A DNA stretch of 47,344 bases from assembly GCA_003141855.1 (NCBI GenBank), contig PLNS01000005.1, positions 6,261 to 53,604 of the forward strand, written 5' to 3'. The position numbers and the translations under genes are program-made. This DNA comes from Candidatus Bathyarchaeota archaeon (lineage in GTDB: Archaea; Thermoproteota; Bathyarchaeia; Bathyarchaeales; Bathycorpusculaceae). Positions 303 through 43,273 of the stretch are shown in pieces (the first letter of the stretch is position 1; each line of letters opens with the position of its first letter). The notes below the pieces were generated by a model, which did no database searches, was not told the DNA's origin, and saw only the letters and a program-made list of their open reading frames with translations.

Positions 303-3020
303 ATGAGAAAAAAAATTTTGAATAGACGTAAAATCAGCAATTCTTTTGGAAGAAAAATACTCAAAAGCAACGGATTAATGGCTATATTGCTTGTAGGCCT
401 ACTGCTTTTTTCCTCAGCAATCGCATTGCAAGGTGCCTTAGCTGCGAGCCCACCAACGGTGCTTCTGGGAACCTCTGCCAATTTCTCGGTTTTGGCAGGC
501 TCTGGAATCACCAACACTGGACCAACCACCATCCATGGAGATGTTGGCACTTATCCGACGCCCTCAGAGACCGGATTTGGCAGCGTAACTATCATTGGAA
601 CTAACCATGTGGACGACGCTGTAACACAACAAGCCAAAATCGACTTGGTAACTGCTTATAACGACGCTGCTGGACGAACACCGGTCATTACAATTCCAAC
701 AGAACTAGGCGGAACAACCCAAATTCCGGGAGTCTACAACTCTGCTGATGGCACATTTGGCATAACCGGTACAGTCACTCTTGATGGCCAAGGCGACCCT
801 AATGCTGTTTTCATATTCCAGATGGCAAGTACACTCACCACTGCATCGAGTAGCGTTGTGCTCCTTATTAACGGCACCCACGCTTGCAATGTCTTTTGGC
901 AAGTTGGCAGTTCAGCGACAATCGGTACTAGCTCTTCTTTCGTGGGAACCATTCTGGCTTTGACATCAATCACCGTGACTACAGGCGCTACGGTTGATGG
1001 CAGATTGTTGGCACGCAACGGAGCGGTCACATTAGACACTAATACCATCGGTCAAACGGTACATCTTGAAGGCATAACTTTAACCCCCGCAACTGCCACG
1101 AATCCTGTTGGCACTAACCATACTGTCACCGCAACTGTGGCAGGCACAGGCGATCCAGTTCCTGGTCGTAATGTCAACTTTACAGTTGTTTCAGGACCAA
1201 ATGCAGGATTAACAGGTTCCGCCATAACTGACAGCAACGGACACGCAACATTCACCTACACAGGCAACACAGCAGGAACCGACACAATTCAAGCGAGCTT
1301 CGTAAACACCCAAGGCGTGACAGTAGTCTCAACTCAAGTAACAAAAATCTGGAATCCAGCGCCTGGCCCCGCAATAATTGTGTCTAAGCAGATATCTGGT
1401 GATAACAGTACGTGGATAAATGCCGATCTACCGCCTGGACTCATAGTTACCGTTGGTTCAAATGTATACTTCAAGTTCAATGTTACCAATATTGGCAATG
1501 TCGCACTATCAACTATAACCTTGACAGATAATACCTATGATTTGAGTGGTGCTTCAGTTCCTCCAACTTTGGCACCCGGCGAATCCTTTGTCTACTACAT
1601 AGGCCCAATTTCAGCTGTATTAGGTCAACATACAAATATTGCAACGGCTTCTGGACAATTTGAAAGCACAAATTATACTTATACTGACAATGCAAACTAC
1701 AATGGCATCCCAGAGTTTACACCCTCAATAAGCGTAGCTAAGCAAATTTCCGGCGACAATACAACTTGGGTTGACGCAGATTTACCACCTGGAATCTCAG
1801 TCGTTGTAGGCGCAAATGTGTACTACAGATTCAATGTCACAAACACTGGCAACGTCGCACTATCGAATATCACTTTGACAGATAATACTTATGATTTAAG
1901 CGGTGCTGCGATTCCTCCAACTTTAGCTCCTGGTGCATCCTTTATTTACTATCTGGGCCCAATTGCAGCTCTGTCGGGTCAACATACAAACATTGCCACC
2001 GCCACCGGCCAATACAACAATGTAACTTATAGCGATACAAATAATGCAAACTATAACGCCGTTCCAGTGACTATTGTTGCAATAAACGTGGAAAAGCAGA
2101 TTTCTGGCGACAACATTACTTGGATTGATGCAGACGTTCCTCCTGGACTCACAATCACAATTGGTTCAAATGTCTACTACAGGTTCAACGTCACAAATAC
2201 TGGCACTGTTACATTGACTAACATCACTCTCACCGATAACAGGTATACCTTAAGTGGTGCTTCAGTTCCTCCAAGTTTAGCTCCTGGTGCATCCTTTATT
2301 TACTACTTCGGCCCAATCACCGCTCTGTCAGGTCAACATACGAACATTGCTACTGCAACGGGTCAATTCAATAACGTTACATACATCGACACAGACAATG
2401 CAAACTACTTTGGGACTTATGCACCGAAACCTACTCCAAAACCAACTTGCGCACCACGACCGACTTGCACACCAACGCCAACTTGTACGCCAAAGCCAAC
2501 TTGCACACCACGACCGACTTGCACTCCAAAGCCAACTTGTATGCCAACTCCTACTTGCACACCAAGACCAACTTGCGCACCAACTCCTACAGCCACCCCC
2601 AAGCCTACTTGCACACCTAAACCCACTTGCACGCCAAAGCCAACTTGCACACCAGCACCGACTTGCGCACCAACTCCAACTGCAACTCCCACGCCAACTC
2701 CTACTTGCACACAAGCACGATCCGACGTGATGAACTACATAAAAACGTACCATAGAGAAACAGCCCAGTACATGCAGTGCTTCTATTGGACCGGCGGGTT
2801 AGTCAACATAGGCACGGTGGGAACAGCAACCTACAAGTACCTAAGCAACGGCTGGACGGTAACCATAACCAGCCCCATAGTCCCTAATCCAGTGTACACG
2901 GTAAAGGTAACCTACGAGAGGCACGCTTACTGGTTCATGCCCGAAAAAGTCATCGTATATTGGCAAGGCACCTGGCAAAACGGAGCAATTAAACAAACAA
3001 ACTACAAGTACACGCCATAA
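303..3020 (+). CDS. Secreted multidomain surface protein: ice-binding-like (DUF3494), Ig-like, three DUF11-like repeats, Cys-rich Pro/Thr stalk
   Basis: 905 aa. A basic N-terminus and a hydrophobic segment (about residues 24-45) ending in ALAAS form a signal peptide. Residues about 50-260 match the DUF3494 ice-binding-like beta-solenoid pattern ([15 protein letters not shown], then GDVGT, and YNDAAGRTP). Residues about 260-350 look like a Big_1-type Ig domain ([15 protein letters not shown]). Three repeats spaced exactly 354 bp (118 codons) follow at about residues 358, 476 and 594, each opening with KQISGDN-TW and resembling DUF11. Residues about 706-804 are a Pro/Thr stalk with 13 evenly spaced cysteines (PKPTC, PRPTC). 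A C-terminal domain of about 100 aa with many aromatics follows. Many NxT/S sequons suggest glycosylation. DUF3494 domains are common in adhesins, so actual ice binding is not implied. Likely a cell-surface adhesin or S-layer-associated protein. Confidence 0.85.
1375..2418 (+). repeat. Three tandem 354-bp repeats inside the surface protein gene
   Basis: Copies begin around 1375, 1729 and 2083. The motif AAGCA.AT.TC.GG.GA.AA recurs at exact 354-bp spacing (1383, 1737, 2091 for its AAG context). Units are conserved at protein level ([40 protein letters not shown]) but diverged at third codon positions, so they are old duplications under protein-level selection rather than a recent expansion. 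Confidence 0.85.
2419..2715 (+). repeat. Pro/Thr/Cys low-complexity repeat encoding the stalk
   Basis: Degenerate 18-bp units of the type CCAAAGCCAACTTGCACA encode (T/A)P(K/R/T)PTC. About 13 units carry Cys. The same DNA produces long spurious open frames on both strands, which are shadows. The amino-acid pattern is uniform, while codons vary (ACT/ACC/ACA, TGC/TGT). Confidence 0.85.
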
Positions 3021-9545: not shown

Positions 9546-10067
9546 GTGTATTTGAGGCGAAACTTCTTGAAGGAAGAACAAATCAAAATTCTAAAAACCA
9601 TGAACGAAGCCACTAACCGCATGGACCTAAACATGTTCGCACAAATGGTAAACTTAAACCCAAACCAAGCCATAACAGAAGTGCAGGAACTTGCCAGGGA
9701 AGGCTTTTTGCGCAAGGTAGGCGGCGGATTTGGCTTAACTGAAAAAGGCAAAAATGCCCTAAAAGCTTATGTGCCTGTTTCGGCGGATGTGGGTTTTAAC
9801 TTTTATGTTGGCGTTGACAAGCCACTGGGTTTCTCTGCGCAGTCGCTTGACGAGTTTTACAGGTTAATTAAGCAGGTATGTTCTGACGCACTTGAATTTC
9901 ACCTGTATCGGGGAGATTTTGAGAATTGGCTAAGAGAAGTCTGTAGGGATGCGGATTTGGCTGAAGCCTTTGGAACCTTAAAGGCAGAGGGGTTGAAGGG
10001 TGAAGACCTCCGAAAAGCACTCCTAAAAGTCATAGACGCCAAATATGGCATTGGAGAACTACAATAG
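9546..10067 (+). CDS. Winged-helix protein with DUF5752-like C-terminal domain
   Basis: 173 aa from GTG at 9546. Residues about 8-75 form a MarR/ArsR-like winged helix (KTMNEATNRMDLNMFAQ, LAREGFLRKVGGGFGLTEKG). The C-terminal half (SLDEFYRLIKQV, LEFHLYRGDFENWLREV, ELA-type helix, GEDLRKALLKVI) follows the pattern of the archaeal DUF5752 domain, whose function is unknown. It is probably a regulator or nucleic-acid-associated protein. The 3' end overlaps the convergent trmO by 9 bp. Confidence 0.75.
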   Translation: MYLRRNFLKEEQIKILKTMNEATNRMDLNMFAQMVNLNPNQAITEVQELAREGFLRKVGGGFGLTEKGKNALKAYVPVSADVGFNFYVGVDKPLGFSAQSLDEFYRLIKQVCSDALEFHLYRGDFENWLREVCRDADLAEAFGTLKAEGLKGEDLRKALLKVIDAKYGIGELQ

Positions 10068-10532
10068 TATCTGCGGTTTTCCATCGTTGAGTTTTTTCCA
10101 CCAGTCGGGAACTTTAGCGTTTTCCGCCATATCCCAGAAATCATAAGGCTTTATGTCTAAAACTGGCGTTGCATCGTAAGCATCCAAACCTCTAACAGTC
10201 AAAACGTTGCCGTCCACCTTAACCAGTTCAACCAATGTTAATCCGATGGGGTTTGGACGGAGCATGGTTCTGGTTGCGAAAACGCCTGTTAAGGGCATGT
10301 CTTGTCTGCCTCTTGGATGAACCTTCAACGTTTTCCGCTGTTCACTGGTGACTTGGTTTAGATAGAACAGCACAAACAAATGCGAAAAACCAGAGATGCC
10401 ACTTAAACCTTCAACCAACTCGTTATTGAGGACAATTTGTGAAATTACGGATTTGTCTTTAACTTCATCGCCAACAACACTGGTTTTAACGTAACCGATT
10501 GGGCTTAAAACAATTTTTTCCCGAAAAGACAT
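10059..10532 (-). CDS. trmO: tRNA (t6A37) methyltransferase TrmO-like protein
   Basis: 157 aa. Motifs of the TrmO/YaeB (UPF0066) family: LSPIGYVKT, HPRGRQDMPLTGVFATRT, RPNPIGLTLVELV and DIKPYD. The bacterial enzyme uses SAM to N6-methylate threonylcarbamoyladenosine at tRNA position 37. The protein lacks the C-terminal extension of the E. coli form, as is usual in archaea. The start at ATG 10532 lies next to a large repeat element. Confidence 0.92.
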   Translation of the reverse strand: MSFREKIVLSPIGYVKTSVVGDEVKDKSVISQIVLNNELVEGLSGISGFSHLFVLFYLNQVTSEQRKTLKVHPRGRQDMPLTGVFATRTMLRPNPIGLTLVELVKVDGNVLTVRGLDAYDATPVLDIKPYDFWDMAENAKVPDWWKKLNDGKPQILL

Positions 10533-10640
10533 CAGGTTCTCCGCTCAACGTTTGAGTGAGCTGTGAAAATATATAAGCATTCGATTTACCTTCTTGCTGG
10601 GCATTACAGATTGTATCAATACATGAGAGGTACTAGTGCT

Positions 10641-10856
10641 CGGAGCAGACTATACCCCCCTCTATTTATACCCTCAACAAACGATGAGCCTAAATGCTAT
10701 GTAACGCGCGTTCATTTAGGGAGAAACGATTTTTTGGCAGCGTTTGTGGAGAAATATTTGTGCGCTTTCATCATTTGCTAGGGCGCCTGCTTTGTTGCTT
10801 TAAAATTTGCTTGAAAGAAACCTCTCTCTCGGCGACCTCCCCCTCCCTTATATTTA
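10641..10856 (-). repeat. Dispersed intergenic repeat, long copy A
   Basis: About 216 bp in the intergenic region between trmO and the glycerophosphodiesterase. It is an inverted match to 42611-42828. Two blocks of 23 nt are identical: 10642-10664 against 42806-42828, and 10772-10794 against 42675-42697; the rest is diverged with small indels. Its ends (TATAAGGGAGGGGGAGGTC and TATAAATAGAGGGGGGTATAGTC on the minus strand) recur in the short copies near 24.1 and 29.1 kb. No open frame is conserved between the two long copies. Confidence 0.85.
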
Positions 10857-23906: not shown

Positions 23907-24135
23907 TCTGTTCGCTCCCTCGCAATGTGAGATTGCGCGGCATTTATTAAGTGTTTTTCACGTTCCCAGCTAAGCTGACGATAAGTTGCATAATCCACGT
24001 GTTTTAAATCGCTAATTGTGTGCTGACAAGTTAGTACTGTAAAGGTTGTCTATGGTAAGACAGGTAGAACATTGGAAAAACAAATTAACAACACCCAACA
24101 ACAGCCTGAAACTGCTTTCTGCCTAGTGCTCTTTT

Positions 24136-24225
24136 TGACTATAGCCCCCTTATTTAAAGCAGAATTAGGCGCCATGTTGAAGAGGATAACTCTCTCACGG
24201 TGACCTCCTCTCCCTTATATAAAGC
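24136..24225 (-). repeat. Dispersed repeat, short copy B
   Basis: About 90 bp. On the minus strand it starts CTTTATATAAGGGAGAGG, AGGTCACC, GAGAGAG and ends TTTAAATAAGGGGGCTATAGTC. It keeps both ends of the long copies but lacks their middle, as does the copy at 29050-29135. Confidence 0.75.
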
Positions 24226-24269
24226 AAAATAAGGTTTTTGGCTGTTAATTGCTTGAAAAATCACCAATA

Positions 24270-24290
24270 CCAACCTACCTCTCTTAGGGA
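24270..24290 (-). repeat. Related small repeat motif
   Basis: The minus strand reads CCTAAGAGAGGTAGGTTGG, a diverged version of the core found at 37662-37680 (CCTAAGAGGGGTAGGTCCG), 50 bp from another version at 24338. Confidence 0.5.
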
Positions 24291-24337
24291 AACCGAGATG
24301 CATTAAGGCTTGTTTTTGACTCCTAAAAACGGTAATG

Positions 24338-24390
24338 CCGACCTACCCCCTATAGGTTTGTGCATAGTATTTCTATTAGGCTCCAACTAT
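24338..24390 (-). repeat. Dispersed repeat, second subtype, copy E
   Basis: It shares about 50 bp with 37662-37715. On the plus strand both read CGACCTACCCC or GGACCTACCCC, then a TAGGTTT.TGCAT motif, GTATTTCTATTAGGCTCCAA and TATG. The block TATTTCTATTAGGCTCCAA is identical in both. Confidence 0.8.
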
Positions 24391-28985: not shown

Positions 28986-29049
28986 GGGCTATTAGTGGAA
29001 ACTGGGCGGATTTAATGCTTTCTAGCCAGAAACTTTTGCTGCTCACAAG

Positions 29050-29135
29050 AGACTATAGCCCCTTATTCAAAGGCAGATTAGTTGGGTTTCCAAAAGCTGT
29101 CTCTCTCAGCGACCTCCCCCTCCCTTATATAAAGA
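29050..29135 (-). repeat. Dispersed repeat, short copy C
   Basis: About 86 bp between the PUA gene and the nicotinate phosphoribosyltransferase gene. The minus strand starts CTTTATATAAGGGAGGGG, GAGGTCGCTGAGAGAGA and ends TTGAATAAGGGGCTATAGTC, nearly the same ends as copy B. Confidence 0.8.
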
Positions 29136-29171
29136 AACAATTGGCAAGTGAACTGGCAGAAGCGGTAGCTG

Positions 29172-37661: not shown

Positions 37662-37715
37662 CGGACCTACCCCTCTTAGGTTTCTGCATTGTATTTCTAT
37701 TAGGCTCCAAATATG
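37662..37715 (-). repeat. Dispersed repeat, second subtype, copy F
   Basis: Matches 24338-24390. On the plus strand GGACCTACCCCTCTTAGG, TTTCTGCATT, GTATTTCTATTAGGCTCCAA and ATATGG. It lies between the wHTH regulator and HtrA. On the minus strand the core reads CCTAAGAGGGGTAGGTCCG. Confidence 0.8.
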
Positions 37716-42053: not shown

Positions 42054-42087
42054 AAAGTATTATTGACTGGCGAAATTCTATTAAAGC

Positions 42088-42095
42088 TATATCCT
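42088..42095 (+). promoter_or_regulatory. TATA box for the HIT gene
   Basis: GCTATATCC, centred near 42091, is about 26 nt before ATG 42117, predicting a leaderless mRNA and choosing that ATG over the upstream in-frame start at 42063. Confidence 0.55.
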
Positions 42096-42116
42096 ACCAA
42101 CAAACCGCTGAAAGGT

Positions 42117-42569
42117 ATGACAACTGTGTCCGAATGCATATTCTGCCAGATAATCCGCAAACAAGCGCCTGCAAACATAGTCTACGAAGATGACCAAGTG
42201 GTTGCTTTTTTGAGTAACCGCCCAGTAAACGAGGGTCACACGCTTGTAGTTCCCCAAAAGCATTACGAGAACATTTATGAGATTTCGGAAGAAGAAGCCG
42301 CTTACCTCTTTAAGATTGCTAAGAGGGTTGCCCATGCGGTCAGGGATGCAACGGGCGCTGAAGGCATCCGAATTGTGCAGAATAACGGGGAAGCGGCTGG
42401 GCAAGTGGTTTTTCACTTGCACGTGCATGTTATTCCCCTGAAACCGCGCAACCAATTTGGCCATGACGGTGCTTTTCGTGACCCAACCAATTATCGAGAT
42501 GCTGAGGCGTTGGAGCGGGATGCGCAGAAAATTGGGCATCGACTACAGCAAACAAACAGCAGAAAATAG
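42117..42569 (+). CDS. HIT-family nucleotide hydrolase/transferase
   Basis: 150 aa from ATG 42117. CIFCQIIRKQAPANIVYEDD, AFLSNRPVNEGHTLVVPQKH, and the histidine triad HLHVHVIP after QNNGEAAGQVVFH. Members hydrolyse nucleoside phosphoramidates or dinucleoside polyphosphates. The CxxC near the N-terminus, with His, can bind zinc as in Hint-like proteins. Confidence 0.94.
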   Translation: MTTVSECIFCQIIRKQAPANIVYEDDQVVAFLSNRPVNEGHTLVVPQKHYENIYEISEEEAAYLFKIAKRVAHAVRDATGAEGIRIVQNNGEAAGQVVFHLHVHVIPLKPRNQFGHDGAFRDPTNYRDAEALERDAQKIGHRLQQTNSRK

Positions 42570-42610: not shown

Positions 42611-42828
42611 TTTATATAAGGGAGGGGTAGGTCGCTTGAGAGGTAGAGGTTTCTTCCAAGCAGTTTTGAAGTTTCAAAGCAGGCGCCCTAGCAAATGCTG
42701 AGAGAGCGCAAAGATATTCTAACAAGCTTTGCGTGTAGGCTACTTCTATGTAATGAACGTAAACTACCGACTCATTTTAGCCTCTCCAAATGTTGAGCCT
42801 ATAAGTAGAGGGGGGTATAGTCTGCTCC
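42611..42828 (+). repeat. Dispersed intergenic repeat, long copy D
   Basis: About 218 bp, inverted relative to copy A at 10641-10856. It starts TTTATATAAGGGAGGGG, TAGGTCGCTTGAGAGG and ends TATAAGTAGAGGGG, GGTATAGTCTGCTCC. Two identical 23-nt blocks are shared with copy A. It lies between the HIT gene and a hypothetical gene. Confidence 0.85.
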
Positions 42829-42925
42829 AAGCGCTAGAGTAAGCAAGGGTTCTTTTGCCAAAAAATAGGCACACCTATAAAAGGGTGAAAAACAATCATT
42901 GCTCATTCAAAAAGCTGGATAATAC

Positions 42926-43273
42926 ATGACTCAACAACCAAACGAGCAAAACAACAATAATGAAACATCTCCCCCAATTGTGAAACTTTTAATCGACAAC
43001 GACCCCGTGAACTTTCCGTTCCACGCCGCATACCTCGTTTATGAGGAAGCTTTTGACAAGGCAACTGAGGCTCAAGCAAAAAACGAATTAAACCAGAACA
43101 TCCAAGACCTAAAAGAAAACAAAATAGACCTTGAAACGTTCTACCGCAATTTGGCGCCTTTTAGAAAACTGGACCTTCCCCGTCAAGAAAGGTTCTCTAT
43201 GCAGACTCAGCGAAAGAAAGATTGGCGCAAGAAAACGCAGCGGCAAGAGAGAATCAAAAGGCACAAGAAATAA
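42926..43273 (+). CDS. Hypothetical charged protein
   Basis: 115 aa. Asn/Gln-rich N-terminus, then a helical core (PIVKLLIDNDPVNFPFHAAY, EEAFDKATEAQAKNELNQ), then a very basic tail (TQRKKDWRKKTQRQERIKRH), suggesting nucleic-acid binding. No known family. The start at ATG is plausible but lacks a strong ribosome site. Confidence 0.55.
   Translation: MTQQPNEQNNNNETSPPIVKLLIDNDPVNFPFHAAYLVYEEAFDKATEAQAKNELNQNIQDLKENKIDLETFYRNLAPFRKLDLPRQERFSMQTQRKKDWRKKTQRQERIKRHKK

Follow-up and report, generated by a model that had tools for sequence, protein, structure and literature searches.

Two inverted intergenic copies in a Candidatus Bathyarchaeota genome probably belong to a lineage-specific family of modular non-coding repeats

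Introduction

Mosaic intergenic repeats are well described for bacteria but little for archaea. The BOX elements of Streptococcus pneumoniae are composite intergenic repeats whose modules stand in a set order with variable module content; they number about a hundred copies, are over-represented between convergent genes and differ in their module sets among related species (PMC3049150). Neisserial NIME and Correia elements (named in PMC3049150) are mosaic intergenic repeats of 70-200 bp, and Correia elements have 26-bp terminal inverted repeats. REP/BIME and REPIN sequences (PMC3116915, PMC2817692) are high-copy extragenic short repeats that sometimes form regular clusters, and prokaryotic MITEs, including those of Sulfolobus and Haloquadratum (PMC10969869), are short, non-coding, multi-copy and intergenic, with element-free sites in relatives. 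A literature search for intergenic repeats in Bathyarchaeota or Bathyarchaeia found no report for that group.

Apart from the terminal inverted repeats of Correia elements, none of which is found in the archaeal element, these traits recur in the sequences described here, and by analogy the archaeal family resembles the pneumococcal BOX and BIME mosaics. The sequences come from a draft Bathyarchaeota MAG (G000; 2.39 Mb, 30 contigs, 96% complete, 3% contamination), in which an initial annotation of one 47,344-nucleotide stretch, hereafter the window, had singled out two long inverted intergenic copies.

Results

The two copies belong to a genome-wide family

Copies 1 and 2 are homologous (74% over 221 nt, E 3e-28). 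Their alignment bears out the end-to-end match in opposite orientation first proposed for them, with two identical 23-nt blocks and a diverged middle, and TATA-like starts are present in both as described. The features at the two sites are as follows.

10641..10856, - strand: copy 1, a long-form U1-U2 element between trmO and the GDPD gene
10059-10532, - strand: trmO, neighbour of copy 1
from about 10904 (start of homology), + strand: GDPD gene, neighbour of copy 1
10834..10851, - strand: U1 core of copy 1 (ATAAGGGAGGGGGAGGTC)
10650..10670, - strand: U2 core of copy 1 (TATAAATAGAGGGGGGTATAG)
10570..10577, - strand: putative native trmO TATA box, judged from its sequence, outside the element
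42611..42828, + strand: copy 2, a long-form U1-U2 element starting ~40 bp past the stop codon of the HIT-domain gene
42063-42569, + strand: HIT-domain gene, 5' neighbour of copy 2
42616..42633, + strand: U1 core of copy 2
42800..42820, + strand: U2 core of copy 2
42876..42883, + strand: putative native TATA box (CCTATAAAAG) of the gene at 42926

When the whole G000 genome was searched with copy 1, 30 places were returned at E <= 0.001. Copy 2 was found at E 2.7e-28 (74% across query positions 34-254), and the nearest relative of copy 1 is not copy 2 but a place on contig C23 (81%, E 5.6e-53). The possibility that no other copies exist, which the initial annotation had named as part of what would refute its reading, is thereby excluded. 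The window itself holds at least three further members:

24069..24390, - strand: third element, with the order M0, M0c, U1, U2, U3b on that strand
29033..29136, - strand: fourth element, a short-form U1-U2 upstream of the NAPRTase gene
37662..37714, - strand: fifth element, an M0 module

At the window start, positions 303-3020 encode a protein of 905 aa that carries an Ice_binding domain and DUF7507 repeats.

Elements are built from ordered modules

Both flagged copies run from U1 (TTTATATAAGGGAGGGGGAGGTCAC..GAGAGG) to U2 (CTATAAATAAGGGGGGTATAGTC......GAGCACTAGAG). A search of intergenic gaps for enriched words added M0 (ATATTTGGAGCCTAATAGAAATAC.ATGCAGAAACCTATAGGGGGTAGGTC), M0c (CCCTAAGAGGGGTAGGTCGG) and U3 (CCTAAATTCCATTTCCAATAG); M0' and M-1 are tandem variants of M0 at 60-64 bp. 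A G-run core is present in all four of M0, M0c, U1 and U2. Sequence-only models matched U1 about 60 times and U2 81 times in G000 (67 of the U2 matches were used), and U1 and U2 matches together form 85 clusters. M0 was matched 103 times, and a reversed-pattern control gave 0. With modules <=500 bp apart merged, the family occupies about 160 sites.

Spacing within elements is regular. U1 and U2 are separated by 46-69 bp in a short form (16 clusters) or by 173-193 bp in a long form (12 clusters, including both flagged copies), and tandem M0 modules lie 60-64 bp apart in 8 of 9 cases. In 14 of 16 cases where M0 neighbours a U module, both share one strand and M0 comes first, against a chance expectation of a quarter. 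The subset of modules present differs from site to site in many combinations, and conservation within the element is lowest between U1 and U2. A conserved block called U3 (AAAAAAGACCTAAATTCCATTTCCAATAG) was observed ~60-100 bp beyond U2 at five loci (L172, L236, L223, L165 and L155). At four others (L307, L315, L319 and L327), additional diverged GT-rich sequence of ~130-215 bp, common to some elements, lies upstream of M0, so that a full element may exceed 600 bp.

Copies are intergenic and without preferred orientation

Gene context was assessed on stretches of G000 with a simple, home-made gene caller based on codon usage. By these calls, 241 of 243 module hits fall outside genes and 2 inside. 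Gaps with modules are enriched in convergent ones (29 of 98, compared with 23 of 168 without modules; Fisher p 0.002) and are longer (median 418 bp vs 157 bp). Many copies end <=40 bp from the stop codon of a convergent gene. Element orientation relative to the flanking genes is even across the three gap types (24/23, 15/14 and 12/10). A comparable context pattern in pneumococcal BOX, RUP and SPRITE elements has been taken to indicate DNA that is mobile and parasitic (PMC3049150).

Element-free sites occur in related species

G000 was compared with stretches of its relatives' genomes. At the copy 2 site, the HIT gene and the next gene are kept in G005, G006 and G017 with no module in the gap, which measures 356 bp in G000, 77 bp in G005, 121 bp in G006 and about 212 bp in G017. 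A stretch with CCTATAAAAG and GAAAAACAA ahead of the gene at 42926 is common to all four genomes and, judging by this conservation, is probably that gene's true promoter. Since this putative promoter stretch is shared by element-free species, copy 2 would lie between the HIT stop codon and the next promoter. In a one-protein tree G000 groups with G005, G013, G017, G016 and G003, and G006 falls outside; gain in G000 is thus the simpler reading at copy 2, although a single gene tree is no proof.

At the copy 1 site, the gap between trmO and the GDPD gene is 371 bp in G000 vs 102 bp, element-free, in G003. The trmO TATA stretch is also found upstream of trmO in G003 and G005, both of which lack the element there; the G005 gap at this site is long and free of modules. 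The gap holding the third window element measures 682 bp, against 52 bp in G005, which lacks about 630 bp there. G005 also lacks M0 and U1 at locus L163, and the M0 site L334 spans 151 bp in G000 vs 92 bp in G005; module-free gaps are mostly of similar length in the two genomes. The presence or absence of elements amid unchanged genes argues against the alternative allowed for in the initial annotation, that the copies are parts of longer duplicated genes.

Some elements have a counterpart at the corresponding site of a second species, oriented the same way. These insertions may be old, may have occurred repeatedly at the same gene, or may have been kept by function. Behind the HIT gene (L419, L426), the module is U2-like in G015 and M0-like in G007: the same gene end with different modules.

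Related species amplified different modules

U1 was matched 76 times in G009, 108 in G011, 24 in G015, 11 in G007, 8 in G006 and not at all in G005. M0 was matched 103 times in G000, 24 in G013, 15 in G007, 6 in G018 and at most once in other genomes. With U1 rich in G009 and G011, and M0 in G000, G013 and G007, related species have amplified different modules. U1 copies of G011 (L237-L251) carry a nearly identical species-specific tail, GAGACGTCGCGTG...GGATACGGAAACGTATGCG, with GGATACGGAAACGTATGCG forming an inverted repeat, which suggests recent amplification of a different sub-family. In a public collection, archaeal records carrying the U1 core are mostly Candidatus Bathyarchaeota MAGs. 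A viral origin was considered and set aside, as IMG/VR yielded the U1 core in a single contig and U2 in none.

Alternative readings as promoter, RNA or binding site

A regulatory role is distinctly unlikely. It would make U1 and U2 tandem core promoters, or the sites of one regulator, controlling downstream genes, as their TATA-like core, G-run and GAGCACTAG block at promoter-like spacing suggest; some copies do precede a gene of like direction by 40-200 bp, and some sites are common to relatives with orientation kept. Against this, the copies are evenly oriented with respect to flanking genes, many of them face the 3' end of a convergent gene and M0 has no canonical TATA box. At both flagged sites, moreover, the neighbouring gene keeps a putative promoter of its own, conserved in element-free species, and the TATA-like start of the element is unlikely to be that gene's promoter. 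The regulon reading was dropped because of the even orientation and the retained native promoters. A set of 37 convergent cases had also suggested antisense promoters at the 3' ends of genes, a reading dropped on the even orientation.

The initial annotation had left the choice between an RNA and a non-autonomous mobile element. The second gains from dispersed intergenic copies, element-free sister sites and random orientation. An RNA gene, with U1 as its TATA box and the stretch from U1 to U2 transcribed as a small RNA, has become very improbable: the TATA-like starts of U1 and U2, and a purine-rich conserved stretch at the distance expected of an archaeal start site, would suit it, but the would-be transcribed stretch is the least conserved. 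An Rfam search matched no family, and folding z-scores were near zero for the flagged copies (0.13, -0.21 and -0.18); for 64 copies, with both strands folded, the means lay between -0.28 and 0.55. The compensatory base changes by which the initial annotation proposed to recognise an RNA were not found: M0 has no pair with a two-sided change. With Rfam, covariation and folding all negative, the RNA gene was rejected. The idea that each module forms a small hairpin with a G-rich loop was also discarded, the predicted pairs being invariant and the folding energy equal to that of shuffles.

The remaining proposal is of very low probability. It holds that the modules are chromatin or protein-binding sites kept by selection, with units of ~60 bp and ~186 bp positioning archaeal histones or a G-tract-binding protein. 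The regular M0 and U1-U2 spacings, the shared G-run core and a placement free of orientation would fit it, but ancestral tandem duplication could alone explain the spacing, and the modules are absent or nearly so in close relatives such as G005.

Comparison with described repeat classes

At 28 U1+U2 sites, the longest direct match was 5.7 in matched vs 5.9 in mismatched flanks, a comparison made with element ends that are not sharp, and the longest inverted match was 6.2 vs 5.9. With neither target-site duplication nor terminal inverted repeats detected at these sites, and with variable module content, the family departs from MITEs, and that assignment was rejected. Y1 (PF01797), the transposase family searched for as a partner, is absent from G000, G011 and G018 and has three matches in element-free G005. 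The modules repeat in direct orientation, not as inverted palindromic doublets. A REPIN with a RAYT-type partner was rejected accordingly, as G000 has no Y1 and the elements no hairpin and no such doublets.

The comparison with BOX goes further. Modules are ordered (14/16 in order and strand) with many subsets, and copies are intergenic (241/243), numerous (about 160 sites) and over-represented in convergent gaps (p 0.002). The elements differ from BOX in being archaeal, in consisting of ~60-bp modules with a G-run core and in lacking stem-loop potential, the mean folding z of -0.28 to 0.55 giving no sign of a stem-loop if transcribed; the family is BOX-like in its working but, for want of this signal, is not filed as a BOX element.

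Discussion

Dispersal, module order, confinement to intergenic DNA, even orientation and presence or absence between related species characterise the sequences described here. We consider it likely, with a probability of roughly 80%, that the two flagged copies are members of a family of modular, non-coding repeats that is specific to this lineage, lies between genes and has spread as non-autonomous DNA within the archaeal genus. Elements consist of ~60-bp modules of fixed order and strand (M-1/M0', M0, M0c, U1, U2, U3), with the subset varying by site. In the proposed model, new copies would insert, in either orientation, in the spacer past a stop codon and clear of the promoter of the following gene, and would be kept because they do little harm in such spacers. 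The elements may move in trans by some recombinase or copying process and may be mainly parasitic, and their absence from a site would be the ancestral state.

Several observations count against spread, namely the elements shared at corresponding sites in two species, the lack in G000 of a terminal inverted repeat, target duplication or Y1 partner, and the long module-free G005 gap at the copy 1 site. Loss could also account for part of the absence in relatives. We raise only tentatively that the family stands for a class of archaeal non-autonomous DNA, made of ~60-bp fixed-order units that land just past stop codons by an undescribed mechanism, without terminal inverted repeats, target-site duplication, hairpins or Y1.

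The elements lengthen the intergenic gaps of these genomes, and their TATA-like starts could mislead promoter or RNA prediction there. A 2.4-Mb genome with about 160 sites, a close sister almost devoid of elements and species-specific module amplification together form a natural series, which could show how DNA spreads without inverted repeats, hairpins or a Y1 transposase.
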